A stretch of DNA of 64,000 nt from Nocardioides sp. Kera G14 (GTDB lineage Bacteria > Actinomycetota > Actinomycetes > Propionibacteriales > Nocardioidaceae). Under the pieces are notes generated by a model. That model saw only the letters and a list, made by a program, of their open reading frames with translations, had not been told where the DNA came from and searched no databases. A program made the position numbers and the translations under genes. Shown in pieces: positions 15,614 through 49,352 of the stretch. Position 1 is the first letter of the stretch. The number at the start of each line of letters is the position of its first letter. Location: assembly GCF_020715565.1 (NCBI RefSeq), contig NZ_CP085839.1, positions 62,001 to 126,000 of the forward strand, in the 5' to 3' direction.

Positions 15614-15630
15614 GTGAGCCCGTGAGGTCC

Positions 15631-15687
15631 GTGAGGCCGTGAGGGGAACGTGACGCACACCTGACGCCGCCATATCTGGGGTGTCAC
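15631..15687 (+). promoter_or_regulatory. Nitrogen promoter module in front of narK (GlnR-like half-sites)
   Basis: GTGAGGCCGTGAG (15631-15643) is followed by GTGAC (15650), CTGAC (15661), ATATC (15672) and GTCAC (15683), each starting 11 bases after the last. This matches the GlnR layout gTnAC-n6-GaAAC and the AC-n9-AC mycobacterial form. The same module stands before the nitrate reductase and electron-transfer genes. It ends 23 bases before the narK ATG. Confidence 0.65.
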
Positions 15688-15710
15688 GCAGCGCGCTGAG
15701 GGTGGTCACC

Positions 15711-17249
15711 ATGACCACCGTGCTGAACACCCCGACGGCCGAGGACACGCCGGCCAAGAAGCACCTGCTGACCAACTGGCGACCCGAGGACCCCGAGTTC
15801 TGGGAGTCGACCGGCCGTACGATCGCCCGCCGCAACCTGACGTGGTCGATCTTCTCCGAGCACCTCGGCTTCTCCGTCTGGGTGATCTGGAGCGTCTCCT
15901 CGGCGTTCCTGCTCTCCCAGGGCTTCAGCTTCACGCCGAAGCAGCTCTTCTTCCTCGTCGCGATCCCGAACCTCGTGGGCTCGCTGCTGCGGGTGCCCTA
16001 CACGTTCGCCGTGCCGAAGTTCGGGGGTCGGACGTGGACGATGATCTCGGCCGGGCTGCTGCTCGTCCCGACGCTGTTGTTCGCGTATGCGGTCACGCAG
16101 CCGGGGACGCCGTACTGGGCCTTCTGCCTCATCGCCGCGACGGCCGGTCTCGGTGGCGGCAACTTCGCCTCGTCGATGGCCAACATCAACTTCTTCTACC
16201 CCGCCAAGGAGAAGGGCAAGGCGCTCGGCATGAACGCCGCCGGCGGCAACATCGGCGTCGCGCTCATCCAGTTCCTGCTACCCGTCATCGTCGGTGGCGC
16301 GGGCATCTTCGGCCTGGTCAAGGCCTCGGCCGGTGGCATCCACCTCGAGCGTGCCGCCTTCCTGTACGCCGCCCTCGCGGTGTGCGGCGTGATCGGTGCC
16401 TTCTTCTTCATGGACGACATCGAGGGCATCGAGTCGCATCCTCGCGAGCAGCTCGCTGTGCTGAAGCACCGCCACGTTCAGGTGCTCTCACTGCTGTACG
16501 TCGGCACCTTCGGCTCCTTCATCGGCTACTCGTCGGCCATGCCGCTGCTGATCAAGGTCAACTTCTGGCGCCAGCCCGTCCCTGCTGTGGTGGGGATCGG
16601 GATCAACTTCGCCTTCTACGCCTTCCTCGGCGCTTTGGTCGGCTCGCTCGCCCGACCGCTCGGTGGCTGGCTCGCCGACAAGTACGGTGGCGGCAGGATC
16701 AGCCTCGCCTGCTTCGTCGGCATGATCGCCTCGACGCTCGGCATCCTCTTCTCGCTCTCGAAGTTGCAGACGCTGCCACCGGCGCCCACAGGTGACGCGC
16801 TCGCCAAGATCGCCGCCGATCCGAAGGCCTTCACGTTCCCGCAGGCTGCGGTCGACGCGGTGGCCAACAACCACGACGTCTTCCCGCTCTTCCTGGCCCT
16901 GTTCATCTGCCTCTTCTTCTTCAGCGGTGCAGGCAACGGGTCGCTCTACAAGATCATTCCTGCCGTCTTCCGCAACGAGGCGATCGACTCGACCGGCCAA
17001 GGCACGCCTGAGCGGGAGCTCTCACTGATCACCGCGGCCAAGAAGGCGTCGGCCTCCGCCGGCCTGATCGGTGCCATCGGTGCCATCGGTGGCTTCCTGA
17101 TCCCGATCACCTTCAACAGCCCGTGGGTCACCGACCCGCTGGCTGCGACGAAGTCGGCGTTCTGGATCTTCACCGCCTTCTACGTGCTCTGCGCGGTCGT
17201 CACCTGGGCGTTCTACGTCCGCAGGAACGGCAAGCACGCGGGCATCTGA
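15711..17249 (+). CDS. narK: Nitrate/nitrite transporter NarK family
   Basis: MFS membrane carrier of 512 residues that imports nitrate (or exchanges nitrate and nitrite). The nitrate signature regions are visible: TAGLGGGNFASSMANINFFY and AKGKALGMNAAGGNIG-like (about 145-190), plus FFFSGAGNGSLYKIIPAVF in the second half. The larger periplasmic and cytoplasmic insertions around residues 360-395 are typical of actinobacterial NarK. The ATG at 15711 follows a weak GAGGG. It is the first gene of the nitrate region and has its own terminator, so it is a separate unit under the shared nitrogen promoter module. Confidence 0.92.
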   Translation: MTTVLNTPTAEDTPAKKHLLTNWRPEDPEFWESTGRTIARRNLTWSIFSEHLGFSVWVIWSVSSAFLLSQGFSFTPKQLFFLVAIPNLVGSLLRVPYTFAVPKFGGRTWTMISAGLLLVPTLLFAYAVTQPGTPYWAFCLIAATAGLGGGNFASSMANINFFYPAKEKGKALGMNAAGGNIGVALIQFLLPVIVGGAGIFGLVKASAGGIHLERAAFLYAALAVCGVIGAFFFMDDIEGIESHPREQLAVLKHRHVQVLSLLYVGTFGSFIGYSSAMPLLIKVNFWRQPVPAVVGIGINFAFYAFLGALVGSLARPLGGWLADKYGGGRISLACFVGMIASTLGILFSLSKLQTLPPAPTGDALAKIAADPKAFTFPQAAVDAVANNHDVFPLFLALFICLFFFSGAGNGSLYKIIPAVFRNEAIDSTGQGTPERELSLITAAKKASASAGLIGAIGAIGGFLIPITFNSPWVTDPLAATKSAFWIFTAFYVLCAVVTWAFYVRRNGKHAGI

Positions 17250-17265
17250 GCCTGCCGGTTTCTTT

Positions 17266-17309
17266 ACCCGGAGGGAGTGGCTTCGGCCGCTCCCTCCGGG
17301 TGATTTTGT
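17266..17309 (+). terminator. Rho-independent terminator of narK
   Basis: ACCCGGAGGGAG (17266-17277) and CTCCCTCCGGGT (17290-17301) form a perfect 12-bp stem around a 12-base loop containing CTTCGG. GATTTTGT follows, one of the few T-rich tails in this window. Confidence 0.9.
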
Positions 17310-17331
17310 ATGCCCGTACCACCGATAGCCC

Positions 17332-17366
17332 TTGCGTTCGATTGCTCGAACAGATAAGGTAGGCGC
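17332..17366 (+). promoter_or_regulatory. Leaderless promoter with overlapping inverted repeat before the HNH gene
   Basis: TTGCGT (17332-17337), a 17-base spacer and TAAGGT (17355-17360) form the best-spaced promoter in the window; the ATG follows after six bases. A perfect inverted repeat GTTCGA-TTGC-TCGAAC (17336-17351) overlaps the -35 box and spacer and is a candidate operator. Confidence 0.6.
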
Positions 17367-18629
17367 ATGTCGCAAGCTGTAGACGCCGGATCCACCGAGA
17401 ACATCCTCGGCCCCAGCAGCGGCATGCCCATCGACAACCCCCTCGCCATGATCGCCCTCACCAAACACTCCGCGAACATGGCCGAAATCGCCTCGCTGTT
17501 GCACACCCTCGACTGGACCCAGCAGCACCAGACCAACGACCCCGCGCACGCAGCCTCCGGTGACCGTGTCCACGACATCCCCCTGGCCGGCGACGGCACA
17601 CCCTGGATCGACGAATCCGCCCTCATGGACCTCGCCGCCGAGACCGGCATGAACGACCACCAGGCACGCTCCTGGGTCGGTGATGCGCTGGAGCTCCACC
17701 ACCGGTTGCCGAAACTCTTCTTCCGCCTCTACGACGAACAACTCCCCGTCTGGAAAGCACGCCTCGTCGCCCAGGCGAGCCGCGTCCTCACCGCCGAGGG
17801 TGCCGCGTGGCTCGACAAAGAACTGCACATGCGGTTCGAGAAGATCGGCCCCACCGCGTTGAAGCGGTTCATCGCCCATGCCATCGACCGCTTCGACCCC
17901 ACAGAGGCAGCCAGGCGCGCCGACGCAGCCGCCGAGAACCGCAAGATCAACCTCCACCCCCAAGACCACGGCACCACCGACGTATTCGGATCCATGGACA
18001 CCGCCGACGGCCTCGACCTCGAAGCAGCCCTCCAACAAGCCGCCGCCGACCTCAAGGAGCAAGGCTCCGACGAGTCGTTGGACGTCCGCCGCTCGAAGGC
18101 ACTCGGTGTGATCGCCCGCCACTACCTCGCAGGCACGACGGCCGGTGCCGTCACACGGACCGTGAACCTCTACGTCCACGCCGACAGCCAGGGGCAGTTC
18201 ACCACCGAAGGCGGCACCGGCCTCACCACCCTCACCCAGGTCCGCGAGTGGTGCACCGCCTCCAACACCAAGATGGCCGTCCGCCCCGTGATCGACCTCA
18301 ACACCAACCTCCGGCGCGCCGGCTACGCCCCCAGCGAGACCCTGCGCGAGCAGGCGATCCTGATCGACAAGACGTGCGTGGCGCCGAACTGCGAACGCAA
18401 CGCCCGGTCAGCCGATCTGGATCACATCGAGCCCTATGACAAAGATCATCCGGACCGCGGCGGACCCACATCGTCGGAGAACCTCGGCTGCCTGTGCCGG
18501 TACCACCACCGGATGAAGACCTTCACCGACTGGACCTACACCAAACTCGAACCCGGCTACTACCTTTGGCGATCTCCTGAAGGCAGGCACTACCTACGCA
18601 CACCGGCGGGCACGAACACGCTCCGGTGA
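17367..18629 (+). CDS. DUF222/HNH endonuclease domain protein (13E12-like family)
   Basis: The 420-residue protein has an N-terminal helical DUF222 region (about 20-300) and a C-terminal HNH domain. The HNH part shows CVAPNC (Cys337 and Cys342), DLDHIEP (His353), an Asn in TSSENLGC and the closing CRYHH pair, so zinc and catalytic residues are present. The family corresponds to the 13E12 repeat proteins of mycobacteria, which occur in many copies and behave like mobile or duplicated genes. The host role is unknown. It lies between narK and the nitrate reductase gene and has no visible tie to nitrogen metabolism. It has its own promoter. Confidence 0.85.
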   Translation: MSQAVDAGSTENILGPSSGMPIDNPLAMIALTKHSANMAEIASLLHTLDWTQQHQTNDPAHAASGDRVHDIPLAGDGTPWIDESALMDLAAETGMNDHQARSWVGDALELHHRLPKLFFRLYDEQLPVWKARLVAQASRVLTAEGAAWLDKELHMRFEKIGPTALKRFIAHAIDRFDPTEAARRADAAAENRKINLHPQDHGTTDVFGSMDTADGLDLEAALQQAAADLKEQGSDESLDVRRSKALGVIARHYLAGTTAGAVTRTVNLYVHADSQGQFTTEGGTGLTTLTQVREWCTASNTKMAVRPVIDLNTNLRRAGYAPSETLREQAILIDKTCVAPNCERNARSADLDHIEPYDKDHPDRGGPTSSENLGCLCRYHHRMKTFTDWTYTKLEPGYYLWRSPEGRHYLRTPAGTNTLR

Positions 18630-18671
18630 GGCTGTGAGGAGTCGGTGACGGTCCGGAGACCCATCGCTAAC
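18626..18671 (+). promoter_or_regulatory. Nitrogen promoter module in front of the nitrate reductase gene
   Basis: GTGAGGCTGTGAG (18626-18638), then GTGAC (18645), GAGAC (18656) and CTAAC (18667), spaced 11 bases apart. It starts inside the HNH stop codon and ends 25 bases before the nitrate reductase start. Layout and spacing match the modules before narK and the electron-transfer gene. Confidence 0.65.
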
Positions 18672-18696
18672 CCGCGCCGTCGATGGCGAGGCGAGG

Positions 18697-20760
18697 ATGG
18701 GGTCGATGGTTGACACACACTGCCCCTACTGCTCGCTCCAGTGCGGGATGTCCCTGCAGCGCAAGGGCCTCGCGCTGGAGGTGGCGGCGCGGCCGGACTT
18801 CCCCGTCAACGAGGGGGCGCTGTGTCGGAAGGGCTGGACCGCCGCTGGTCTTCGCGGGTCGCGCGAGCGGATCACCTCGCCAATGGTGCGCTCGCGTTCG
18901 ACGGGTGAGTGGAGTGCAGCGTCATGGGACGAGGCGCTCGACCTGATCGCGGACCGCCTTATGACGTTGAGGTCTGAGCACGGCGCTGATGCCAACGCGA
19001 TCTTCGGTGGCGGTGGTCTGACCAACGAGAAGGCCTACCAGCTCGGCAAGTTCGCCCGCATTGCACTGGGCACGGCGATGATCGACTACAACGGCCGTTG
19101 GTGCATGTCGTCCGCGGCGTCGGCGGGCAACCAGGCCTTCGGCGTGGACCGCGGCCTGCCCTTCCCCCTGGCCGACGTCGAGCAGGCGGATGTCGTGGTG
19201 CTCGTCGGCTCCAACCTCGCCGAGACGATGCCACCGGCCGCGCGGCACCTCGACCGCCTCCGGGAGCGTGGCGGCAAGGTCGTGGTCATCGACCCTCGTC
19301 GTACGCCGACCGGCGACCGTGCCGACCTCTTCCTGCAACCCGTGCCGGGCACGGATCTCCCACTGGCACTGGGGATACTCCACTTGATCGACGCTGCAGG
19401 AGGGGTTGACGAGGCCTATGTCGCCTCCCGGGCTGTGGGGTTCGACGAGGCCCGCACGGCCGCCGCTGAGTGGTGGGAGGAACGCGTCGAGCGGGTCACC
19501 GGCATCCTCGCCTCGGAGGTGCGCCAGCTCGCCGAGCTGATGATGTCGTCGAAACGCGTGATGGTGCTGACCGCCCGCGGTGCCGAGCAGCATGCCGACG
19601 GCACGGCCACCGTGCTGGCCTGGATCAACGTCGTGCTCGCCCTGGGGCTCCCCGGGAGGCCGTACGCCGGCTACGGCTGCCTCACCGGCCAGGGCAACGG
19701 ACAGGGTGGTCGCGAGCACGGCCAGAAGGCCGACCAGCTTCCCGGTTACCGGATGATCGACGATCCCGCGGCACGCGCGCATGTCGCCTCGGTGTGGGGC
19801 GTCGCGCCGGAATCCCTTCCCGGCAAGGGGTTGTCGGCCTACGAGCTGCTCTCCGCGCTGGGCACCGAGCAGGGCCCGAAGTCGCTGATGGTCTTCGGCT
19901 CGAACCCGGTCGTCTCCGCCCCGAACGCCCTCGCCGTGACGGAGCGGCTGCAGGCGCTCGACCTGTTGGTGGTCGCGGACATCGTCATGTCAGAGACCGC
20001 GGCACTCGCTGACGTCGTACTCCCGATCACGCAGTGGGCCGAGGAGAGCGGCACGATGACGAACCTCGAAGGGCGGATCATCCTTCGCCAGAAGGCGATC
20101 ACACCCCCGGCGGGGGTGAGGTCCGACCTCGACATCATGGCCGGCCTGGCCGAGAGGCTGAAGGCGCCGGGTGCCTGGTCGGTCGAGCCGGAGGTGGTCT
20201 TCGACGAGCTCCGGTTGGCGAGCAAGGGCGGCAAGGCCGACTACAGCGGCGTCACCTACGACCGGATCCGCACGGAGAACGGCCTCTTCTGGCCGGTCCC
20301 GACGCTTGATGACGGGGACCATCCCGGCACCGAGCGGCTCTTCGCCGAGTCGTTCTTCCACGCCGACGGTCGCGCCCGCTTCGTGCCGGTCGAGTGGCAC
20401 GGCGTCGCTGAGGAGATCGACGCCGACTTCCCGCTCCACCTGACGACCGGCCGCGTCCTGTCGCAGTACCAGTCGGGCGCCCAGACCCGCCGGATCCGCG
20501 ACCTCCCCGACGAGGGCGCCTTCGTCGAGCTCCACCCGATGCTCGCCCTGCGCCTCGGCGCGCATGACGGCGAGCCCCTCACGCTCAGCACGAGACGCGG
20601 CACGATGCAGGCACCCGCCAAGATCGTCGACACCATCCGCCCAGACACGATCTTCGTCCCCTTCCACTGGATCGGCGCCAACAAGCTCACCCTCGACACC
20701 CTCGACCCCAGCTCCCGCATGCCCGAGTTCAAGGTCTGCGCGGCTGCTGTGAGGGCGTGA
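18697..20760 (+). CDS. nasA: Assimilatory nitrate reductase, catalytic subunit
   Basis: Cytoplasmic molybdopterin enzyme reducing nitrate to nitrite. The 687-residue protein begins with the [4Fe-4S] ligands CPYCSLQC (Cys9, 12, 16) and Cys43, then NGRWCMSSA whose Cys136 is the expected Mo ligand, YGCLTGQGNGQGGREHGQKADQ at the cofactor site, and the C-terminal molydopterin-dinucleotide-binding domain (LHLTTGRVLSQYQSGAQTRR, about 580-600). There is no extra C-terminal [2Fe-2S] domain, so electrons probably come from the next gene's product. An alternative ATG at 18706 is equally possible. No twin-arginine signal is present, as expected for an assimilatory enzyme. Confidence 0.92.
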   Translation: MGSMVDTHCPYCSLQCGMSLQRKGLALEVAARPDFPVNEGALCRKGWTAAGLRGSRERITSPMVRSRSTGEWSAASWDEALDLIADRLMTLRSEHGADANAIFGGGGLTNEKAYQLGKFARIALGTAMIDYNGRWCMSSAASAGNQAFGVDRGLPFPLADVEQADVVVLVGSNLAETMPPAARHLDRLRERGGKVVVIDPRRTPTGDRADLFLQPVPGTDLPLALGILHLIDAAGGVDEAYVASRAVGFDEARTAAAEWWEERVERVTGILASEVRQLAELMMSSKRVMVLTARGAEQHADGTATVLAWINVVLALGLPGRPYAGYGCLTGQGNGQGGREHGQKADQLPGYRMIDDPAARAHVASVWGVAPESLPGKGLSAYELLSALGTEQGPKSLMVFGSNPVVSAPNALAVTERLQALDLLVVADIVMSETAALADVVLPITQWAEESGTMTNLEGRIILRQKAITPPAGVRSDLDIMAGLAERLKAPGAWSVEPEVVFDELRLASKGGKADYSGVTYDRIRTENGLFWPVPTLDDGDHPGTERLFAESFFHADGRARFVPVEWHGVAEEIDADFPLHLTTGRVLSQYQSGAQTRRIRDLPDEGAFVELHPMLALRLGAHDGEPLTLSTRRGTMQAPAKIVDTIRPDTIFVPFHWIGANKLTLDTLDPSSRMPEFKVCAAAVRA

Positions 20761-20805
20761 GCAGAAAGTGACACACCCCTGACACCTACGGGTCGGGAGT
20801 GTTAC
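20749..20805 (+). promoter_or_regulatory. Nitrogen promoter module in front of the nitrate electron-transfer/nirBD operon
   Basis: GTGAGGGCGTGAG (20749-20761), then GTGAC (20768), CTGAC (20779), GGGTC (20790) and GTTAC (20801), starting 11 bases apart. The first 19 bases of the GTGAC part match the narK copy at 16 of 19 positions. It overlaps the nitrate reductase stop and ends 22 bases before the next GTG start. Confidence 0.65.
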
Positions 20806-20827
20806 GACGGCCGCACACCATGGAGTT

Positions 20828-22276
20828 GTGACTGAGCGGATCGTGATCGTGGGCAACGGCATGGCTGCCGTGCGCCTTGCGGAGCGGTTGGTCTCGAGGC
20901 GCGACGCGAGCCGGCGCGACCTGCAGATCACTGTCGTGGGGGACGAGCCGCACGCGCCGTACAACCGGATCCTGCTCAGCGCCGTGCTGGAGGGGACGCA
21001 CCGGCCCGAGGCGATCACGCTGCGCAACGGCAACTGGTTCGCGGCCCACGGGATCGACCTACGACTCGGCATGCGGGTGGTCGACATCCACCGTGACCGC
21101 AAGGTGATCGAGCTCGCCGACCGCAGCGAGATTCCCTACGACAAGCTCGTCCTCGCCACCGGTGCGATCCCCACACTGCCGCCGATCCGCGGGCTGGTGC
21201 AGCGCGACGGCAACCTGCACCCGAAGGTGCACGCGTTCCGCAGCCTCGACGACTGCGGCCGACTCCTCGCTGAGGTTTCGACAAGCTCAACCAACAGGGG
21301 ACCTCAGACGGCGATCGTCATCGGCGGCGGCCTGCTCGGCCTGCAGGTCGCGCGTGCCCTCTCCATCCGCGGACTTCGAGTCGAGATCATCGAGGGCGCC
21401 GAGTCGCTGCTCCACTCCCACGTCGACGAGGCCGCCGGCGCCGTGCTCAAGCGCAGCCTCACGAAGCTCGGCACCGAGGTCTACACCGGTGCGCGAGCCA
21501 TCCGGATCGACGACAACGGCCTCCAGCTCGACAACGGCTTCACGCTCGACGCGGACCTCTTCGTCCTCACCGCCGGCGGTCGTCCGAGCGTCAACCTCGC
21601 CCGCCGCGCCGGCCTCGAGATCCGCCGGGGCATCGTCATCGACGACACCTTGGCAACGACGGATGAAGACATCTTCGCCATCGGCGACTGTGCGCAGCAC
21701 GACGGTCGGACGACCGGCTTCGTCCCGCCGGCCTGGGAGCAGGCCGCGATCCTTGCGGCGAGGCTCACCGGCGGCGAGAAGCAGTACGACGGCCACCGGA
21801 TCGTCGCGCGCCTCCGCGCCACCGACCTCGACGTCGCCGTCCTCGGCGACCCGCAGCACGCCGCGACGGAGCCCGGCGCCGAGGTCGTCAAGGTCTCCAA
21901 CCCGATCAAGGGCACCCACAAGCTCCTCGTCCTCGACGACGGCGTGATCACCGCCGCCACGCTCGTCGGCGACCTCTCCCAGGTCGGCCTGATCACCCAG
22001 GCGTTCGACCGCGGAACCCGGCTCGCGGAGGGCGAGCCGGGACTCCTTCTCACGGGTCCCCGCAGCATCGCGGGGTCTTCGGACGCGTCGCCGGTGCAGT
22101 CGTTGCCCGACGACGCCGAGATCTGTGCCTGCGCCGGTGTCAGTGCCGGCCGGATCCGGGCCTGCTCCTCGCTCGACGACGCGCGTGAGCAGACCCGAGC
22201 GACCACCGGGTGCGGCGGGTGCCGCTCGGTCGTCGAGCAACTCCTCGCCCCCGCACGAGTGAAAGAGATCGCGTGA
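20828..22276 (+). CDS. nasB: FAD/NAD(P)-dependent oxidoreductase with C-terminal BFD-like [2Fe-2S] domain
   Basis: Likely electron-transfer partner of nitrate reductase, passing electrons from NAD(P)H. The 482-residue protein has a FAD Rossmann motif IVIVGNGMAAVRLAE at the N-terminus, a second dinucleotide motif VIGGGLLGLQVARAL (about 160-174) and the FAD-contact EDIFAIGDCA. The last 50 residues hold a BFD-type cluster motif CAC (Cys433, 435) and CGGC (Cys462, 465). Organisation resembles the N-terminal half of NirB and Bacillus NasB. A 38-base palindromic element sits in frame at about residues 148-160. The GTG start is preceded by the nitrogen module. The symbol is by analogy. Confidence 0.85.
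   Translation: MTERIVIVGNGMAAVRLAERLVSRRDASRRDLQITVVGDEPHAPYNRILLSAVLEGTHRPEAITLRNGNWFAAHGIDLRLGMRVVDIHRDRKVIELADRSEIPYDKLVLATGAIPTLPPIRGLVQRDGNLHPKVHAFRSLDDCGRLLAEVSTSSTNRGPQTAIVIGGGLLGLQVARALSIRGLRVEIIEGAESLLHSHVDEAAGAVLKRSLTKLGTEVYTGARAIRIDDNGLQLDNGFTLDADLFVLTAGGRPSVNLARRAGLEIRRGIVIDDTLATTDEDIFAIGDCAQHDGRTTGFVPPAWEQAAILAARLTGGEKQYDGHRIVARLRATDLDVAVLGDPQHAATEPGAEVVKVSNPIKGTHKLLVLDDGVITAATLVGDLSQVGLITQAFDRGTRLAEGEPGLLLTGPRSIAGSSDASPVQSLPDDAEICACAGVSAGRIRACSSLDDAREQTRATTGCGGCRSVVEQLLAPARVKEIA
21270..21307. repeat. REP-like palindromic insertion inside the nitrate electron-transfer gene
   Basis: CTGAGGT (21270-21276) and ACCTCAG (21301-21307) are perfect complements enclosing TTTCGACAAGCTCAACCA. 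It adds AEVSTSSTNRGPQ at the linker just before the second Rossmann motif and keeps the frame. I recall this TTTCGACAAGCTCAACCA word as an abundant intergenic repeat in actinobacteria, but could not check it here. Confidence 0.5.
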
Positions 22277-24882
22277 TGAGCCCTGAGTACCGCAAGCGCA
22301 TCGTCGTCATCGGACACGGCATGGTCGGACACCGCTTCGTCCAGGCCGCCATCGAGCGTGGTCTGACCGAGACCCACGACATCGTCATCCTCGGGGAGGA
22401 GCCGCGGCCGGCGTACGACCGCGTCGCGCTCACCTCGTGGTTCGAGGTCGGCGACAAGGCCCTCTCCTTCCTTCCCGAGGGGGAGTACGACGACCCGCGT
22501 GTCTCCTTGAGGCTCAACGCCGAAGTGGTCGCCATCAGCCCGAGGCACCGCATCGTGACGCTGGCCAACGGTGAGGACCTCTCCTACGACGAGCTCGTGA
22601 TGGCCACCGGTGCGGCGCCGTTCGTGCCGCCCGTGCCGGGCCGCGAGCTGGGGAACGTCTTCGTCTACCGCACGATCGACGACCTCGACGCCATCCGTAA
22701 GGCAGCGCGCAAGGCCAGGACGGGTGCGGTCATCGGTGGTGGCCTCCTCGGCCTCGAGGCCGCGAATGCCCTGCACCAGCTGGGTCTTGAGACTCACGTC
22801 GTGGAGCTCGCGCCGCGGCTGATGGCCGTCCAGGTCGACGACACCGGCGGCAGGACGCTGACCCGGCACATCGAGAAGCTCGGCATCACCACCCACACCG
22901 GAGCGATGACCGAGGCGATCCTCGCTGACAGGTCGGGCACGCGGGTCGGCAGCCTGGCGCTCAAGGACCGCAACGCCCTCGACGTCGACATCGTCGTCTT
23001 CTCTGCCGGCATCCGGCCGCGTGACGCCCTCGCCCGCGCCGCCGACCTTCAGGTGGCCGAGCGCGGCGGCATCCTCGTCGACGAGCAGTGCCGCACGATC
23101 TCCGACGAGCACATCTGGGCGATCGGTGAGTGCGCCGCACCCGGCGGTGTGATGTACGGCCTGGTCGCTCCCGGCTACTCGATGGCCGAGGTCGCGGTCG
23201 ACGCACTGGTCCGGGGTGGCGACACGGAGGCCGCCTTCACCGGCGCCGACATGTCCACGAAGCTCAAGCTTCTCGGCGTCGACGTCGCCTCCTTCGGTGA
23301 CGCCCACGGCACCACGCCCGACTCGCTCGAGCTCGTCTTCCACGACGCCGTGGCCGGCATCTACAAGAAGCTCGTCGTCACGGAGAACTCCGACGGTTCC
23401 TACCGTCTGCTCGGCGGCGTGCTGGTCGGCGACGCGTCGGCGTACGGCCTCCTGCGTCCCATGGTCTCCAGTGGCCTCGCGCTGCCGGAGAACCCCGAGG
23501 AGCTGATCCTGCCCGCCTCCACCGGAGCCGGCGCCCACATCGAGCTGCCCGACGAGGCGCAGGTCTGCTCCTGCAACGACGTCAGCAAGGGCGACATCAA
23601 GCACGCTGTCGACAACGGCTGCGAGACCGCCGGTGATGTCACCCGTGAGACCAAGGCCGGCGCCACGTGCGGCTCCTGCAAGGTCCAGGTCAAGAAGATC
23701 GTCGAGGACCACTTCGCGGCGCAGGGCAAGACGGTCGACAAGAGCCTCTGCCAGCACTTCCCCATCACTCGTGCCGAGCTCTTCGACGTCGTGCTCATCC
23801 ACGGCTACACGACCTTCGACCAGATCATCGAGGCGCACGGCCGCGGCCGCGGCTGCGACATCTGCAAGCCCACCGTCGCCTCGATCCTCGCGAGCCAGCT
23901 CAACGGGCACGTCCTCGCCCGCGAGAACCGGACGCTGCAGGACACCAACGACTTCGCGCTCGCCAACATGCAGCGCAACGGCACTTACTCCGTCGTCCCG
24001 CGCATCCCGGGCGGCGAGATCACGCCGGAGAAGCTGATCGTCATCGGTGAGGTCGCGCGCGACTTCGGGCTCTACACGAAGATCACCGGCGGGCAGCGGA
24101 TCGACCTCTTCGGCGCGCGCCTCGAGCAGCTTCCCCTTATTTGGCGGCGGTTGGTCGATGCGGGCATGGAGTCCGGCCACGCCTACGGCAAGTCGCTGCG
24201 CACGGTGAAGTCCTGCGTCGGCTCGACCTGGTGCCGGTACGGCGTCCAGGACTCGGTCGGCCTCGCCATCATGCTCGAGCTCCGCTACCGCGGGCTGCGC
24301 AGCCCGCACAAGCTCAAGGGCGGCGTCTCCGGGTGTGCCCGCGAGTGCGCCGAGGCGCGCGGCAAGGACTTCGGCGTCATCGCCACGGAGAAGGGCTGGA
24401 ACCTGTACGTCGGCGGCAACGGTGGCGCCATCCCGGCCCACGCGCAGCTGCTGGCGGGCGACCTCTCCACCGAGGAGCTTGTGCGCTATCTCGACCGGTT
24501 CCTCATGTACTACATCCGCACCGGCGACCGACTCCAGCGCACCTCCACCTGGATCGACTCCCTCGACGGTGGCCTCGACCGGGTGCGTGAGGTCGTCATC
24601 GACGATGCGTTGGGTCTCGGGTCCGAGCTCGAGGCGGCGATGGCGCAGCACGTCGACTCCTACTTCGACGAGTGGGCCGCCACCCTCGAGGACCCCGACA
24701 AGCTGCGTCGCTTCGTCTCCTTCGTCAACGCGACCGAGACGCCCGACCCCTCGATCTCCTTCGGCACGCTGCGGGACCAGATCGTCCCCGTCGACTCCGA
24801 CGGCCAGGTGAACCTCGGCACCGCGATTCCCGTCGGAGCCCCCGCCGGCTTCGTCGGCGCACCGGCAGGAGCAGAGCGATGA
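22276..24882 (+). CDS. nirB: Nitrite reductase (NAD(P)H) large subunit
   Basis: Cytoplasmic siroheme enzyme reducing nitrite to ammonium with six electrons. The 868-residue protein has a FAD domain (IVVIGHGMVGHRF, then AVIGGGLLGLEAANAL), a BFD [2Fe-2S] domain with CSCND and CGSC (about 434-470), a linker with SLCQHFP and GCDICKP Cys pairs, and the sulfite/nitrite reductase half. The latter ends with the [4Fe-4S]-siroheme ligands SCVGSTWC and SGCARECAEA. All expected cofactors are present. The ATG shares one base with the upstream stop (TGATG) and nirD overlaps by four bases. Confidence 0.95.
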   Translation: MSPEYRKRIVVIGHGMVGHRFVQAAIERGLTETHDIVILGEEPRPAYDRVALTSWFEVGDKALSFLPEGEYDDPRVSLRLNAEVVAISPRHRIVTLANGEDLSYDELVMATGAAPFVPPVPGRELGNVFVYRTIDDLDAIRKAARKARTGAVIGGGLLGLEAANALHQLGLETHVVELAPRLMAVQVDDTGGRTLTRHIEKLGITTHTGAMTEAILADRSGTRVGSLALKDRNALDVDIVVFSAGIRPRDALARAADLQVAERGGILVDEQCRTISDEHIWAIGECAAPGGVMYGLVAPGYSMAEVAVDALVRGGDTEAAFTGADMSTKLKLLGVDVASFGDAHGTTPDSLELVFHDAVAGIYKKLVVTENSDGSYRLLGGVLVGDASAYGLLRPMVSSGLALPENPEELILPASTGAGAHIELPDEAQVCSCNDVSKGDIKHAVDNGCETAGDVTRETKAGATCGSCKVQVKKIVEDHFAAQGKTVDKSLCQHFPITRAELFDVVLIHGYTTFDQIIEAHGRGRGCDICKPTVASILASQLNGHVLARENRTLQDTNDFALANMQRNGTYSVVPRIPGGEITPEKLIVIGEVARDFGLYTKITGGQRIDLFGARLEQLPLIWRRLVDAGMESGHAYGKSLRTVKSCVGSTWCRYGVQDSVGLAIMLELRYRGLRSPHKLKGGVSGCARECAEARGKDFGVIATEKGWNLYVGGNGGAIPAHAQLLAGDLSTEELVRYLDRFLMYYIRTGDRLQRTSTWIDSLDGGLDRVREVVIDDALGLGSELEAAMAQHVDSYFDEWAATLEDPDKLRRFVSFVNATETPDPSISFGTLRDQIVPVDSDGQVNLGTAIPVGAPAGFVGAPAGAER

Positions 24883-25214
24883 CCTCGGTCTGCCCGGTCG
24901 AGGCGATCGATCCCGAGTCGGGCGTCGCCGCGCTCGTCGGGGGCGAGGCGGTCGCCGTCTTCCGGACGAAGGACGACCACTTCTACGCCATCTCCAACTA
25001 CGATCCGTTCGGTCGCGCCTCAGTCCTGTCGCGCGGCATCGTCGGGACACGCACCGTGGGTGATGAGGAGGTGCCCTTCGTGGCTTCGCCGCTGCTCAAG
25101 CAGGCCTTCGACCTGCGTACGGGCGTCTGCCTGGACGACCCGGCGGTCACCGTGCCGACGTACGACGTCGTGGTGAGCGACGGCCTCGTGCTGGTCGGAG
25201 ACAGAGTTGGCTGA
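24879..25214 (+). CDS. nirD: Nitrite reductase small subunit NirD
   Basis: The 111-residue protein has the Rieske-like NirD fold (VFRTKDDHFYAISNYDPFGRASVLSRGIVG, then SPLLKQAFDLRTGVCLDD) but lacks the Cys/His ligands of true Rieske proteins, as is normal for NirD. It binds NirB to form the active NADH-nitrite reductase. The ATG overlaps nirB by four bases; the next gene starts with TTG eight bases before this stop. Confidence 0.92.
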   Translation: MTSVCPVEAIDPESGVAALVGGEAVAVFRTKDDHFYAISNYDPFGRASVLSRGIVGTRTVGDEEVPFVASPLLKQAFDLRTGVCLDDPAVTVPTYDVVVSDGLVLVGDRVG

Positions 25215-26325
25215 TCGCCCCCTCGAGGGCTTCCGGATCGGCGTGACCGCAGCCCGCAAGGCGGAGGAACAGGTCGCGCTGCTGGAGCGCCGCGGAGCGT
25301 CGGTGGTGTGCGCGCCGGCGCTGTCGATGGACCCCAACCGGGTCGACGATGCCGCACTCCGGGAGAGCACCGAGGAGGTGCTCGGCCAGCGGGTCGACAT
25401 GCTCCTGGTGACGACGGGGATCGGCATGAAGGCGTGGTTCGCGAAGGCCGAGGAGTGGGGCCTCGCCGAGCGCCTGACCGCCCATCTCAACGAGGCCGAG
25501 ATCCTCGCCCGCGGCCCCAAGTCGGTCGGCGCACTGCGTCGTTTCGGCCTGCGCGAGCTGTGGGCGCCGTCATCCGAATCCTTCGACGACGTCCTCGAGC
25601 ACCTGCGCGGCCGCGACCTGACCGGCAAGCGGATCGTGGTGCAGGAGCACGGCCAGTCGCTCTCGATGGTCGCGCACGCGCTGCGGCGCCAAGGTGCCGA
25701 GGTCGTCTCCGTCGTCGTCTACCGGGTCGAGCCCGCTGCGGACCCCGGGCCGATGTTCGGGCTCGTCGAGCTGATCGCCGGCCGTGAGCTCGACGCCGTC
25801 ACCTTCACCTCCGCGCCCGCGATCGCCGCGCTGATGCAGGTCGCCGGCTCGATGGGCCTGCGCGACGAGGTCGTCGCGGCCTTCCAGGCCGACGTGGTCG
25901 CCTCCTGCGTGGGGCCGGTCGCAGCGGCCGCCTTCGACCTGTGGGGCGTACCGACGATCTGGCCCCCCGACCGTTATCGCCTGGTGGCGATGGTCAACCA
26001 GCTGGAGGCCGAGCTGCCCTCACGTCGCGCCGGCCTCTCCATCGAGCTCCTCGGCGGCCATCAGCTGCTGCTCCACGGCGAGGAGGTGCTGCTCGACGGC
26101 GCCGAGGTGAAGCTCTCCGCCGCACCACTCGCCGTGCTCAACGCGCTGGTCGCCAACCCCGGCAACGTGGTCTCCCGGCCTGCCCTGCTGGCGATGCTGC
26201 CCAGCGGGACGGCCGGCTCCGAGCACGCCGTCGAGATGGCGGTGGCCCGCCTCCGCTCCGCTCTCGGGACGCGGGCGATCCAGACGGTGGTGAAGCGCGG
26301 CTACCGGTTGGCCGTGGCGCCGTGA
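25207..26325 (+). CDS. nnaR: NnaR-type regulator: HemD-like domain fused to a winged helix
   Basis: The 372-residue protein joins a uroporphyrinogen-III synthase-like domain (about 1-265; FRIGVTAARKAEEQVALLERRGA and SCVGPVAAAAFDLWGVP) to an OmpR-type winged helix (about 275-370; LSAAPLAVLNALVANPG and VVKRGYRLAVAP). In Streptomyces and mycobacteria this fusion is NnaR, an activator of nitrate/nitrite assimilation genes acting with GlnR. HemD activity may or may not be retained. The TTG start is rare but has GGAG six bases upstream and overlaps nirD. Position in the nir operon supports the regulator role; siroheme synthesis is a second possibility. Confidence 0.85.
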   Translation: MADRPLEGFRIGVTAARKAEEQVALLERRGASVVCAPALSMDPNRVDDAALRESTEEVLGQRVDMLLVTTGIGMKAWFAKAEEWGLAERLTAHLNEAEILARGPKSVGALRRFGLRELWAPSSESFDDVLEHLRGRDLTGKRIVVQEHGQSLSMVAHALRRQGAEVVSVVVYRVEPAADPGPMFGLVELIAGRELDAVTFTSAPAIAALMQVAGSMGLRDEVVAAFQADVVASCVGPVAAAAFDLWGVPTIWPPDRYRLVAMVNQLEAELPSRRAGLSIELLGGHQLLLHGEEVLLDGAEVKLSAAPLAVLNALVANPGNVVSRPALLAMLPSGTAGSEHAVEMAVARLRSALGTRAIQTVVKRGYRLAVAP

Positions 26326-27041
26326 CCCAGCTCATCACCGTCGCCCACGGCACCCGGCATGCGACCGGCAACCAGATCGCGTCGGAGCTTGCCCGGCTGG
26401 CGGGCGAGCGGCTCGCGATGGAGTCGACGTCGTCGTACGTCGAGCTCTGCGCGCCTCTCTTCGCGGATGTGATGGCGGGCGCGTCCGGGGATGTGGTCGC
26501 GGTGCCGCTGCTGCTCTCGCGCGGCTATCACGTGGCCGTCGACCTCCCGGCGGCGGTTCTCGCGGCAGGAAACACCGGACTCGACGGCAGGAAAGCCCGG
26601 ACTCGGCGGGAGGAAAGCCCCGATTCGGTGGTGCTGGCGCCGCCGCTCGGACCGCACCCGCTCCTGGCCCGCGCCCAGGCGTCACGCCTGATCGAGGCCG
26701 GCGCCACGCCCGGGGAGTCGGTGGTGATGATCGCCGCCGGCTCGCGTGACCCGCGTGCGGCCGAGGACCTCGCTGTCGCCGCCGACCTGCTCACCGGGAT
26801 CTGGGGCGCTCGCGTTCGGGTCGCCGTGCTCAGCGGTGAGGGCGGCCGTCCGGCCGAGGTGATCGAGCCCGGCGACGTCGTCTCCACCTACCTGCTCAGC
26901 CCCGGTCACTTCGCCACCCGCGCCGCCGAGGAGGCCCGTGCCTCCGGTGCCACCATCGTCGCCGACGTGCTCGGTGTGCACCCGCTCGTCGTCGAGCTCA
27001 TCTGCGAGCGGGCGACCAAGGCCCAGCCAGTGAGGTTGTGA
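26322..27041 (+). CDS. Sirohydrochlorin chelatase-like protein (CbiX/SirB family)
   Basis: Likely inserts iron into sirohydrochlorin to make siroheme for NirB. The 239-residue protein has two half-repeats: ITVAHGTRHATGN with the metal-binding His at 9, PLLLSRGYHVAVDLP with a second His, and in the C-half MIAAGSRDPRAAED and LLSPGHFATRAAEE. About 22 residues near 82-103 (AGNTGLDGRKARTRREESPD) come from three 22-bp tandem repeats that interrupt the first half just before LAPPLGPHP. The insertion is in frame, so the gene may still work. GTG start, with a four-base overlap with the regulator gene. Confidence 0.82.
   Translation: MTQLITVAHGTRHATGNQIASELARLAGERLAMESTSSYVELCAPLFADVMAGASGDVVAVPLLLSRGYHVAVDLPAAVLAAGNTGLDGRKARTRREESPDSVVLAPPLGPHPLLARAQASRLIEAGATPGESVVMIAAGSRDPRAAEDLAVAADLLTGIWGARVRVAVLSGEGGRPAEVIEPGDVVSTYLLSPGHFATRAAEEARASGATIVADVLGVHPLVVELICERATKAQPVRL
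26564..26629. repeat. Three tandem 22-bp repeats inside the cbiX-like gene
   Basis: Units at 26564-26585, 26586-26607 and 26608-26629 share GGCAGGAAA-N2-CCGGACTCG with a few changes. Total length is 66 bases, so the frame is kept. The reverse complement of the same unit occurs twice at 47448-47491. Confidence 0.8.
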
Positions 27042-27109
27042 GAACAAGTTCACCGTGCCGGGTCTGCATCCGCCGAGCGCCGGCAACAGCCCGCGCGGAA
27101 CGTGAGGCC

Positions 27110-27538
27110 ATGGACAAGGAACTTCTCACCGAAAGCCTCGTCCTGGTCGATGGCCAGGAAGAGGCGCTGACGCCCCGCTTCTACGAGATCCTCTTCACGC
27201 GCTACCCCCAGGTGCGTCCGATGTTCTCTGCTGACATCGCCCCGCAGGCCAAGATGCTTCGCAGCGCCGTGCTCGCGGTCCTCGACAACCTCGACGACTC
27301 CGTCTGGCTCACCGACACCCTCGGTGCCCTCGGTGCGAAACACTCCGGCTGGGGCGTCACGCCCCCGATGTACGACGCCGTCGCCGAGTGCATGATCGCC
27401 GCCATGGAGGAGCTCGGTGGCTCGGCGTGGACGCCGGCGATGACCGCGGAGTGGACCGGTGCCCTCGGCGCCGTCGCCTCGCTCATGCTGGCCGGCGCCG
27501 AAGGCGTCGCCGAGCCGGATGCCGAAGGTGTCGCCTGA
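27110..27538 (+). CDS. Globin domain protein (flavohemoglobin-type globin, no reductase domain)
   Basis: The 142-residue protein is a single globin domain: ALTPRFYEILFTRYPQVRPMF in the A-C helices, AKHSGWGV with proximal His78, and TAEWTGALGAVASLM at the H helix. Gln46 may be the distal E7 residue, as in flavohemoglobins. It lacks the FAD/NAD reductase domain. Placed last in the nirBD unit, it probably binds or detoxifies nitric oxide formed from nitrite; this is inference from context. I chose ATG 27110 because it starts just before the globin A helix; a longer frame back to 27038 would overlap the previous gene. Confidence 0.8.
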   Translation: MDKELLTESLVLVDGQEEALTPRFYEILFTRYPQVRPMFSADIAPQAKMLRSAVLAVLDNLDDSVWLTDTLGALGAKHSGWGVTPPMYDAVAECMIAAMEELGGSAWTPAMTAEWTGALGAVASLMLAGAEGVAEPDAEGVA

Positions 27539-48596: not shown

Positions 48597-48631
48597 GCAC
48601 CAAAGCCTTGAGAGGCCTGCGTTGCCACGGC

Positions 48632-48649
48632 GTATCCGATTTTCGATAC
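48632..48649. promoter_or_regulatory. Inverted repeat between vanZ-like and response-regulator genes
   Basis: GTATC-CGATTTTC-GATAC (48632-48649), the A+T-richest spot of the 90-base divergent gap. It may bind the adjacent OmpR-type regulator. TACGAT at 48672-48677 may be the -10 box of the regulator gene. Confidence 0.4.
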
Positions 48650-48686
48650 ACCCGCGATAGGTCCCGCCTCCTACGATCAACGGGTT

Positions 48687-49352
48687 ATGCGCGTGCTGAT
48701 CGTCGAGGACGAGCCCCTGATGGCCGTGGCCGTCCGTGACGGCCTGCGGCTCGAGGCGATCGCCGCCGACATCGCGGGCGACGGCGACACCGCGCTCGAG
48801 CTTCTCGCCGTGAACGAGTACGACATCGCCGTGCTCGACCGCGACATCCCCGGCCCATCGGGCGACGAGGTCGCCCAGCGGATCGTCGCCTCCGGCACCG
48901 GCATGCCGATCCTGATGCTCACTGCGGCGGACCGGCTCGACGACAAGGCGAGCGGCTTCGAGCTGGGAGCCGACGACTACCTCACCAAGCCCTTCGAGCT
49001 GCGCGAGCTCGTGCTGCGACTACGCGCCCTGCAGCGACGCCGGGCGCATCATCGGCCGCCGGTCCGCGAGCTGGCCGGGCTCCGGATCGACCCCTTCCGG
49101 CGCGAGGTCTTCCGCGACGGACGCTATGTCGCGCTGACCCGCAAGCAGTTCGCCGTGCTCGACGTCCTCGTCGCGGCGGAGGGCGGCGTGGTCAGTGCCG
49201 AGGAGCTGCTCGAGCGGGCATGGGACGAGAACGCCGACCCGTTCACCAACGCCGTCCGCATCACCGTCTCGGCGCTGCGCAAGCGGCTCGGCGACCCGGG
49301 GATCATCGCCACGGTGCCCGGCGTGGGCTACCGGATCGACGTGCATGCCTAG
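48687..49352 (+). CDS. OmpR-family response regulator
   Basis: The 221-residue protein has a receiver domain (1-115) with VEDEP, phosphoacceptor Asp51 in VLDRDIPG, Thr/Ser in MLTAADR and Lys in LTKPFEL, and an OmpR winged helix (about 130-220) with LTRKQFAVLDVLVAAEGGVVSAEELLERAW and ATVPGVGYRI. The kinase gene overlaps its end by eight bases. Target genes are unknown; the divergent vanZ-like gene is a candidate. Confidence 0.92.
   Translation: MRVLIVEDEPLMAVAVRDGLRLEAIAADIAGDGDTALELLAVNEYDIAVLDRDIPGPSGDEVAQRIVASGTGMPILMLTAADRLDDKASGFELGADDYLTKPFELRELVLRLRALQRRRAHHRPPVRELAGLRIDPFRREVFRDGRYVALTRKQFAVLDVLVAAEGGVVSAEELLERAWDENADPFTNAVRITVSALRKRLGDPGIIATVPGVGYRIDVHA

Follow-up and report, generated by a model that had tools for sequence, protein, structure and literature searches.

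In Streptomyces coelicolor, nitrate and nitrite promoters are reportedly co-activated by NnaR and GlnR, as described by Amin in 2012. For M. smegmatis, the accessible part of one study gives the NnaR motif as CTCAC-N16-GTGAG beside GlnR boxes (PMC6277429), and binding of NnaR to the nirB, narK, and trHbN promoters was seen there by EMSA (PMC6277429; Antczak 2018). A second source, in the sections available, describes the motif as an inverted CTCAC-13-16 bp-GTGAG (PMC11162112). The locus presented here has much in common with these promoters as far as the available text of PMC6277429 describes them: an NnaR of the same HemD-wHTH type, GlnR, a GTGAG word just upstream of a GlnR box, shared targets (narK, nirB, nasA in Streptomyces, and a globin in M. 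smegmatis), and, as a prediction from sequence for our promoters, features of leaderless transcripts. It differs in the globin, which belongs to PF00042 and is not the truncated trHbN of M. smegmatis, and in the distal half-site, which is inverted in the published motif (CTCAC-N13-16-GTGAG) but here repeats head to tail at a distance of 8 bp, often with 3-4 copies. We regard the locus as a variant of the known NnaR-GlnR promoter whose new element is a direct repeat where the published NnaR motif is inverted. A search on NnaR and direct repeats found no description of such an operator in the text available from that literature, and a search on operator evolution found no matching work.

The window analyzed, 64,000 nucleotides of Nocardioides sp. 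Kera G14, carries a nitrate assimilation cluster on the forward strand. A preliminary description had placed three copies of one promoter module at 15631-15687, 18626-18671, and 20749-20805, with GTGAC 19 bases after each module start; the coordinates were correct and the spacing was true of all three, as was the identity of 16 of 19 bases between the narK and electron-transfer (nasB) copies, read from the sequence. The same description had half-sites recurring every 11 bases. This stood for some steps, P+11 and P+22 in all three copies (P being the second GTGAG), and the remaining steps were empty: AC-ending words occupy P+11, P+22, and P+44 in the narK and nasB copies and P+11, P+22, and P+33 in the nasA copy.

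The narK copy proved longer than had been stated, with four GTGAG words (15614, 15622, 15631, and 15639, in steps of 8, 9, and 8 bp) forming a presumed NnaR site at 15614..15643. It is followed by presumed GlnR half-sites at 15650..15687 (GTGAC 15650-15654, CTGAC 15661-15665, GTCAC 15683-15687), a -10-like hexamer GAGGGT at 15698..15703 (P+59), and the ATG at 15711 (P+72, 80 bp from 15631) of an MFS nitrate/nitrite transporter gene (15711..17249, PF07690), named narK from gene order and the earlier label. A DUF222 gene (17367..18629, PF02720) lies between narK and nasA, and its stop codon is overlapped by the second module, which comprises a GTGAG-N3-GTGAG pair (presumed NnaR site, 18626..18638), presumed GlnR half-sites at 18645..18671 (GTGAC 18645, GAGAC 18656, CTAAC 18667), and, 3' of these, a -10-like GAGGAT at 18693-18698. 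The molybdopterin nitrate reductase gene nasA (18706..20760; PF00384, PF01568, PF04879) probably starts, judged by geometry, at ATG 18706, 80 bp from 18626, rather than at 18697. Its stop codon is in turn overlapped by the third module, with a presumed NnaR pair at 20749..20761, presumed GlnR half-sites at 20768..20805 (GTGAC 20768, CTGAC 20779, GTTAC 20801), and a -10-like CACCAT 3' of them at 20816-20821. Downstream lie a nasB-like FAD/NAD(P) reductase gene with a BFD [2Fe-2S] domain (20828..22276; PF07992, PF04324), whose GTG start is 79 bp from the module start; nirB, the nitrite reductase large subunit gene (22276..24882; PF01077, PF03460, PF07992); a nirD-like small subunit gene (24879..25214), named by its position behind nirB and matched by an ORF in related loci; nnaR, whose product joins a HemD domain to an OmpR-type winged helix (25207..26325; PF02602 and PF00486); and a cbiX/sirB-like ferrochelatase gene (26322..27041, PF01903). 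A fourth module, absent from the preliminary description, was found at 27030..27053 with TTCAC replacing GTGAC (GTGAG-N3-GTGAG-N6-TTCAC), 80 bp before ATG 27110 of a single-domain globin gene (27110..27538, PF00042). As in the NnaR-GlnR regulon, with its nitrate/nitrite genes and NO-linked globin, the targets are nitrate/nitrite genes and a globin gene. In all four copies the module start lies 79-80 bp upstream of the start codon (P+71/72), the spacing that a leaderless mRNA would need.

A search of the whole 3,469,009-bp genome for GTGAG-N3-GTGAG-N6-GTGAC returned exactly three matches, those before narK, nasA, and nasB-nirBD, and the pattern read backwards returned none. The search had been proposed earlier with amt and glnA in mind; for these genes the outcome is that of the genome-wide pattern, which has no further exact copy. 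Within the window, GTGAGN{2,5}GTGAGN{5,7}GTGAC matched three times against 0.01 expected, and 0 of 100 dinucleotide shuffles reached three. The preliminary description would have been contradicted by modules in front of many unrelated genes; among pattern-only matches in relatives, 38 of 39 lie 27-161 bp upstream of nitrate genes (narK 31, nasA 3, nasB 2, nirB 2). With two mismatches allowed, the genome itself gave 14 matches (the three exact ones, the globin copy, one shifted narK match, and nine others) and the backward control 5. Each of the nine others overlaps a long open frame on its strand.

The earlier suggestion that an 11-bp period with AC-n9-AC fits GlnR found comparative support, since AC ends recur in the direct-repeat promoters of the Nocardioides clade (P+11 in 42/46, P+22 in 15/46, P+44/45 in 36/46) and the genome encodes a GlnR (L198:1057-1806; best PDB match 8hih, E 3e-89). 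Two AC half-sites 11 bp apart, GTGAC followed by CTGAC or GAGAC, are present in three copies but not in the globin copy. The GlnR boxes of actinomycetes, in the available text of PMC10704036, likewise consist of AC-n9-AC half-sites in 11-bp steps, and the a1-b1-b2 nas promoter of Amycolatopsis described there also has an additional distant half-site, separated by 16 bp compared with about 17 bp here (PMC10704036). A difference lies in the second half-site, which is of the GAAAC type in those boxes (PMC10704036); no GAAAC-type b-site was found 11 bp after the a-site in the window copies, which carry CTGAC or GAGAC at P+22. In relatives, GAAAC-like words occur mostly at P+44/45. The P+44 half-site would fall between -35 and -10, an odd position for an activator.

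The GTGAG part had been left earlier as either an NnaR or a second GlnR site. We prefer NnaR because GTGAG is the half-site word published for NnaR, where it likewise precedes a GlnR box at comparable genes, within what the accessible text of PMC6277429 and PMC11162112 covers; an NnaR-type protein is, moreover, encoded within the same cluster as the modules. An unlikely alternative is that GlnR half-sites make up the entire module, with GTGAG as a degenerate one and NnaR uninvolved at these sites. The second GTGAG does lie one GlnR step, 11 bp, before GTGAC, and related OmpR-type regulators such as MtrA have near-identical motifs (PMC6277429, in the part available), but the word ends in AG rather than AC, the 62 additional upstream GTGAG steps include 56 of 8 or 9 bp and none of 11 bp, and a general GlnR site would be expected in more than three exact genomic copies.

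Co-occurrence was considered as proof of NnaR binding and rejected as confounded. Across 215 genomes of the genus, the exact module was present in 141 of 162 with NnaR and 4 of 53 without (141 both, 21 NnaR only, 4 module only, 49 neither); among the 21, the genomes whose loci were compared had mostly near-matches, and one had NnaR but no nitrate genes. NnaR co-occurs with the nitrate genes, and nirB tracks it nearly as tightly as the module does (156/215), so these counts neither single out NnaR nor name the binding protein. The pattern GTGAG-N3-GTGAG-N6-KTGAC was found in 145/215 genomes, with no backward match among the matches listed.

Comparison of narK promoters, with loci carrying two narK genes (L216, L217, L220) contributing one upstream region each, revealed a division by clade. 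The exact direct repeat GTGAG-N3-GTGAG was present in 30 of 34 promoters of the Nocardioides clade and 0 of 42 outside it, and for the exact inverted repeat the counts were 0 of 34 and 13 of 42, respectively; shuffled sequences gave a mean of 0.11 both for the direct repeat among clade promoters and for the inverted repeat among those outside. A class-wide sample of whole genomes gave the direct-repeat composite in 13/14 of the genus, 1/1 of genus g5, 0/4 of g19, and 0/227 of the others. The distal half-site of the clade lies 8 bp upstream of the proximal GTGAG in the same orientation, many promoters have 3-4 half-sites stepped 8-9-8 (a stepping seen in 23 of 79 unique modules), and GTGAG copy number runs from 2 to 5. 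Exact inverted promoters of the outgroup have N18 in 16 of 19 cases. The spacing among the proximal GTGAG, the P+11/P+22 half-sites, and the -10 is shared by promoters of both kinds, direct-repeat and inverted-repeat. An in-frame start at P+71-73 was found by script in 19/46 clade promoters, or 20/46 counting ATG 18706 of nasA, and a start at P+70-74 in 7/18 inverted-repeat promoters.

The published inverted motif, sought as CTCAC-N12-20-GTGAG, was absent from the module sites, which would therefore act as NnaR operators without fitting that motif. Its two matches elsewhere in the window, a number at chance level (1.32 expected; 34 of 100 shuffles reach two), lie away from them. An inverted composite was detected in 4/215 genomes of the genus (backward control, one match), none beside a clear nitrate gene. 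These were taken as chance because the four loci show almost nothing of the nitrate gene set: only L247 has weak FAD-reductase similarity (31-33%), and the other three have no member of the set. The split is not absolute, because N. ferulae carries a direct repeat at narK and an inverted repeat at its globin gene, with the proximal part alike in both.

On the NnaR tree, one change suffices for the exact direct and inverted labels. The chances seem about even that a single change of operator geometry, on the branch leading to Nocardioides and its near relatives, replaced the inverted pair by a head-to-tail array on which rows of 2-4 monomers sit, with the half-site word, GlnR site, and -10 left in place, and that NnaR has kept the ability to use either arrangement, which the N. 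ferulae promoters suggest. No recognition-helix residue marked the clade in an NnaR alignment of 57 clade and 52 outside rows, and the switch is therefore not explained by a change in the protein. The 42 columns that do mark it, hand-sorted, fall in the HemD domain (34), the linker (3), and the wHTH (5), with none in helix 339-353, the presumed recognition helix of an AF2 model (pLDDT 87.9, pTM 0.64) that leaves the domain arrangement open; this spread is suggestive only. A longer HemD-wHTH linker was dropped as a cause, an inverted-site sister (L128) having a similar linker length. That another regulator took over the repeat in the clade, with NnaR acting elsewhere or only as a partner of GlnR, would account for a changed geometry with an unchanged word and helix, and the co-occurrence counts accommodate it; we hold it to be improbable, given that the word, its spacing to the GlnR site and the -10, and the target genes all match those of NnaR, that the labels follow the NnaR tree with a single change, and that N. 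ferulae has both geometries. Least credible is that NnaR binds the proximal GTGAG only and the other words were left behind by short local duplications: slippage could yield tandem 8-9-8 repeats of varying copy number, but the exact pair persists in most clade narK promoters and is found again at nasA, nasB, and the globin gene, with differing bases in the spacer.

From the observed sequences, spacings, targets, and clade distribution, we infer with good though incomplete confidence that each copy would serve a single leaderless promoter as a composite site for activators, with NnaR on a head-to-tail repeat in the Nocardioides clade. GlnR, the general nitrogen-starvation regulator, would occupy the half-sites set in 11-bp steps, at P+11, P+22, and, with less certainty, P+44, and NnaR from the same cluster would bind the GTGAG repeat immediately 5' of them. 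Acting jointly, the two would bring RNA polymerase to a weak -10 near P+59, and transcripts would begin at or close to the start codon, P+71/72. Both regulators would be required, so that narK, nasA, nasB-nirBD-nnaR-cbiX, and the globin gene would be switched on together, and because nnaR sits behind the third copy it may feed back positively on itself. In the clade, NnaR would sit on half-sites 8, then 9, then 8 bp apart, probably as a row of 2-4 monomers, and outside it on two inverted half-sites 21-23 bp apart; what changed would be their arrangement, with the half-site word and the recognition helix conserved. OmpR-type domains usually step by 11 bp, and neighboring monomers may clash at the tighter 8-bp step. 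BldC also reads tandem direct repeats as a row of monomers; the likeness is one of analogy, with no kinship claimed, BldC being MerR-like and its repeat unlike GTGAG in length and sequence.

The evolution of site architecture under a constant regulon is difficult to observe. Here word, register, and targets are fixed, only the orientation and spacing of one half-site altered, once on the tree, and a single genome, N. ferulae, holds both forms; the case lends itself to a clean test of a single wHTH regulator's ability to recognize either arrangement. The published inverted motif, used as a query, would miss nearly all of the Nocardioides regulon, as the few inverted composites above indicate.

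Module copies accompany breaks in the operon: a nasA copy was present in 0 of 32 loci where narK ends within 150 bp and in 6 of 7 otherwise (p 2e-6). Origin of module 2 as a fresh copy of module 1 was rejected by eye; its GAGTCG spacer also occurs in the nasA copies of some other genomes.

The three copies of the module GTGAG-N3-GTGAG-N6-GTGAC (a presumed NnaR site, the GTGAG repeat, followed by presumed GlnR half-sites) that the preliminary description had placed at 15631, 18626 and 20749 on the forward strand were all recovered, against 0.01 matches expected per window. A genome-wide pattern search returned the same three exact copies and none elsewhere in the genome. When up to two mismatches were allowed, the genome held 14 matches, compared with 5 for the same pattern written backward; among them were a fourth copy (27030-27053), with an exact GTGAG-N3-GTGAG 80 bp upstream of the globin ATG, and nine others, all nine of which overlapped a long open frame on their own strand. 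GTGAG-N3-GTGAG alone (hereafter the direct repeat) occurred five times in the window (0.33 expected): two copies at narK and single ones at nasA, nasB and globin.

The cluster is ordered narK, a DUF222 gene, nasA, a nasB-like reductase gene, nirB, nirD, nnaR, cbiX and globin. Counting the window, 30 of 39 related loci had a narK-nasA gap below 100 bp, and the DUF222 gene (17367-18629), which lies between the two, looks like an insertion into the operon. The closest NnaR in a 77-protein tree was that of N. terrae (81%). GlnR is encoded at ~2.817 Mb in the genome (best PDB match 8hih, E 3e-89), and the adjoining ORF, judged by eye and by the usual GlnR neighbourhood, is presumably mycothiol synthase. 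An OmpR-type response regulator followed by a putative histidine kinase (by eye; window ~48600-49340 and downstream) was unrelated to the module.

The published NnaR motif, in the excerpts consulted, is an inverted repeat adjoining the GlnR box (PMC6277429, PMC11162112). Upstream regions were cut from 80 loci with aligned NnaR (the best 80 of 582 relatives) and from 40 further stretches, leaving, after identical narK regions were dropped, 34 from the Nocardioides clade (Nocardioides and close kin) and 42 from outside it, the latter rich in Micromonospora, which mostly carries GTGCG in place of GTGAG. The exact direct repeat was present at narK in 30/34 clade regions versus 0/42 outside (33/34 versus 1/42 with up to one mismatch). 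The exact inverted repeat (CTCAC-N16-18-GTGAG) showed the opposite distribution, 0/34 versus 13/42; with one mismatch it was found in 6/34 versus 34/42, a looser count with a clear background. Shuffling gave means of 0.11 direct repeats for the clade set and 0.11 inverted repeats for the outside set. In three genomes of g19, a genus of the same family whose NnaR is 38-40% identical, the exact inverted site stood at nirB in all three and at narK in one, the other two having one mismatch. Across a sample of the class, 13/14 genomes of the genus, 1/1 of genus g5, 0/4 of g19 and 0/227 others carried the direct-repeat composite, and a family sample added a second g5 genome (G028) and one of genus g11 (G055). 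The predicted composite NnaR-GlnR promoter, with its new, clade-specific geometry, is well supported.

Counting from the proximal GTGAG (P), AC half-site ends in the 46 direct-repeat promoters fell at P+11 (42/46), P+22 (15/46) and P+44/45 (36/46), and in the 19 inverted promoters at P+11 (6/19), P+22 (11/19) and P+43-45 (16/19). CTCAC at -21 to -23 was found in none of the 46 direct promoters; its presence in 19/19 inverted ones is a consequence of the selection criterion. TAnnnT near P+59 occurred in 15/18 inverted promoters versus 2/46 direct ones, so that the -10 element of the clade looks weaker, with the TAnnnT form mostly lost; a much looser AnnnT was present there in 38/46 direct promoters.

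GTGAG was often further multiplied: 79 unique modules carried two (43), three (11), four (24) or five (1) copies, and 56 of 62 additional steps, searched 5-14 bp upstream, were 8 or 9 bp, the 8-9-8 array occurring 23 times. Upstream of N. bruguierae narK (L104), a mirror array combined CTCAC at -43/-35/-26 with GTGAG at -17/-8/0, again in 8-9 bp steps.

Geometry was set against a quick IQ-TREE phylogeny of the 77 NnaR proteins (SH-aLRT only), with 36 of 113 rows unlabelled and omitted (19 outside, 17 in the clade) and globin promoters unused for labels. Exact labels (35 direct, 17 inverted) required one change; one-mismatch labels required two, the extra one being L119, a locus from which narK is absent. 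The clade branch was long (0.68) with support 100, and its sister, L128, is a Propionibacteriales genome with an inverted site. Globin genes were found in 7/215 genomes of the genus. Direct repeats preceded globin at -80/-72 in the window and G260 and at -79/-71 in G526, while G222 had CTCAC-N18-GTGAG at -94/-71, its proximal part close to the window's; two of the remaining promoters had neither repeat and one was in a genome without an NnaR match. The G222 upstream sequence is that of L112, N. ferulae, whose narK carries a four-copy direct repeat, and clade NnaR may therefore read both geometries.

Module copies followed separate promoters. With up to one mismatch, the direct repeat preceded nasA in 0/32 loci with the narK end within 150 bp versus 6/7 others, and the same test gave 3/34 versus 8/9 for nasB and 1/33 versus 5/18 for nirB. 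The window nasA copy agrees with this rule, the DUF222 gene parting nasA from narK. For nasB, the window counts among the three exceptions, with a copy inside a 70-bp gap. Some separate clade nirB promoters had the degenerate form GTGAGGYCGTGCC. From module start to start codon, the window distances were 80, 80, 79 and 80 bp (nasA start taken as 18706). An in-frame start at P+71-73 was the highest peak in clade promoters (19/46; 20/46 with the window nasA), and 7/18 inverted promoters had a start codon at P+70-74. Corresponding M. smegmatis transcripts have leaderless features, according to excerpts of PMC6277429.

The form GTGAG-N3-GTGAG-N6-KTGAC was present in 145/215 genomes of the genus; among the rows listed, the backward pattern had none (checked by eye). 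Modules before many unrelated genes, an outcome that the preliminary description took as speaking against its reading, did not materialize: in 53 loci gathered through the pattern alone, 38 of 39 matches with this exact form preceded nitrate genes, 27-161 bp upstream of the estimated starts (narK 31, nasA 3, nasB 2, nirB 2). The odd one, in L035 (1501-1609, G133), precedes a non-nitrate ORF that by eye resembles an oxidoreductase of the Old Yellow Enzyme type, and may reflect chance or a further target.

The module was found in 141/162 genomes with NnaR versus 4/53 without (p 8e-27), an association confounded with the genes served because NnaR (162/215) and nirB (156/215) occur, by eye, in nearly the same genomes. 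Four NnaR homologues of 277-284 aa end after HemD, without the winged helix (L252 in G206, L253 in G563, L165, and L250 in G228). G206 and G563 had no module, but also no nirB match; G228 had no module, and a nirD-like piece lay just upstream of its truncated homologue on a short contig. Locus L214 of G170 encodes a full-length NnaR with cbiX and has no narK, nasA or nirB in the stretch, and genome-wide neither a nirB match nor an exact module was found, leaving this NnaR without the usual targets. In G164 and G178, two genomes without a nirB match, modules lay near NnaR fragments, apparently in decaying nitrate clusters.
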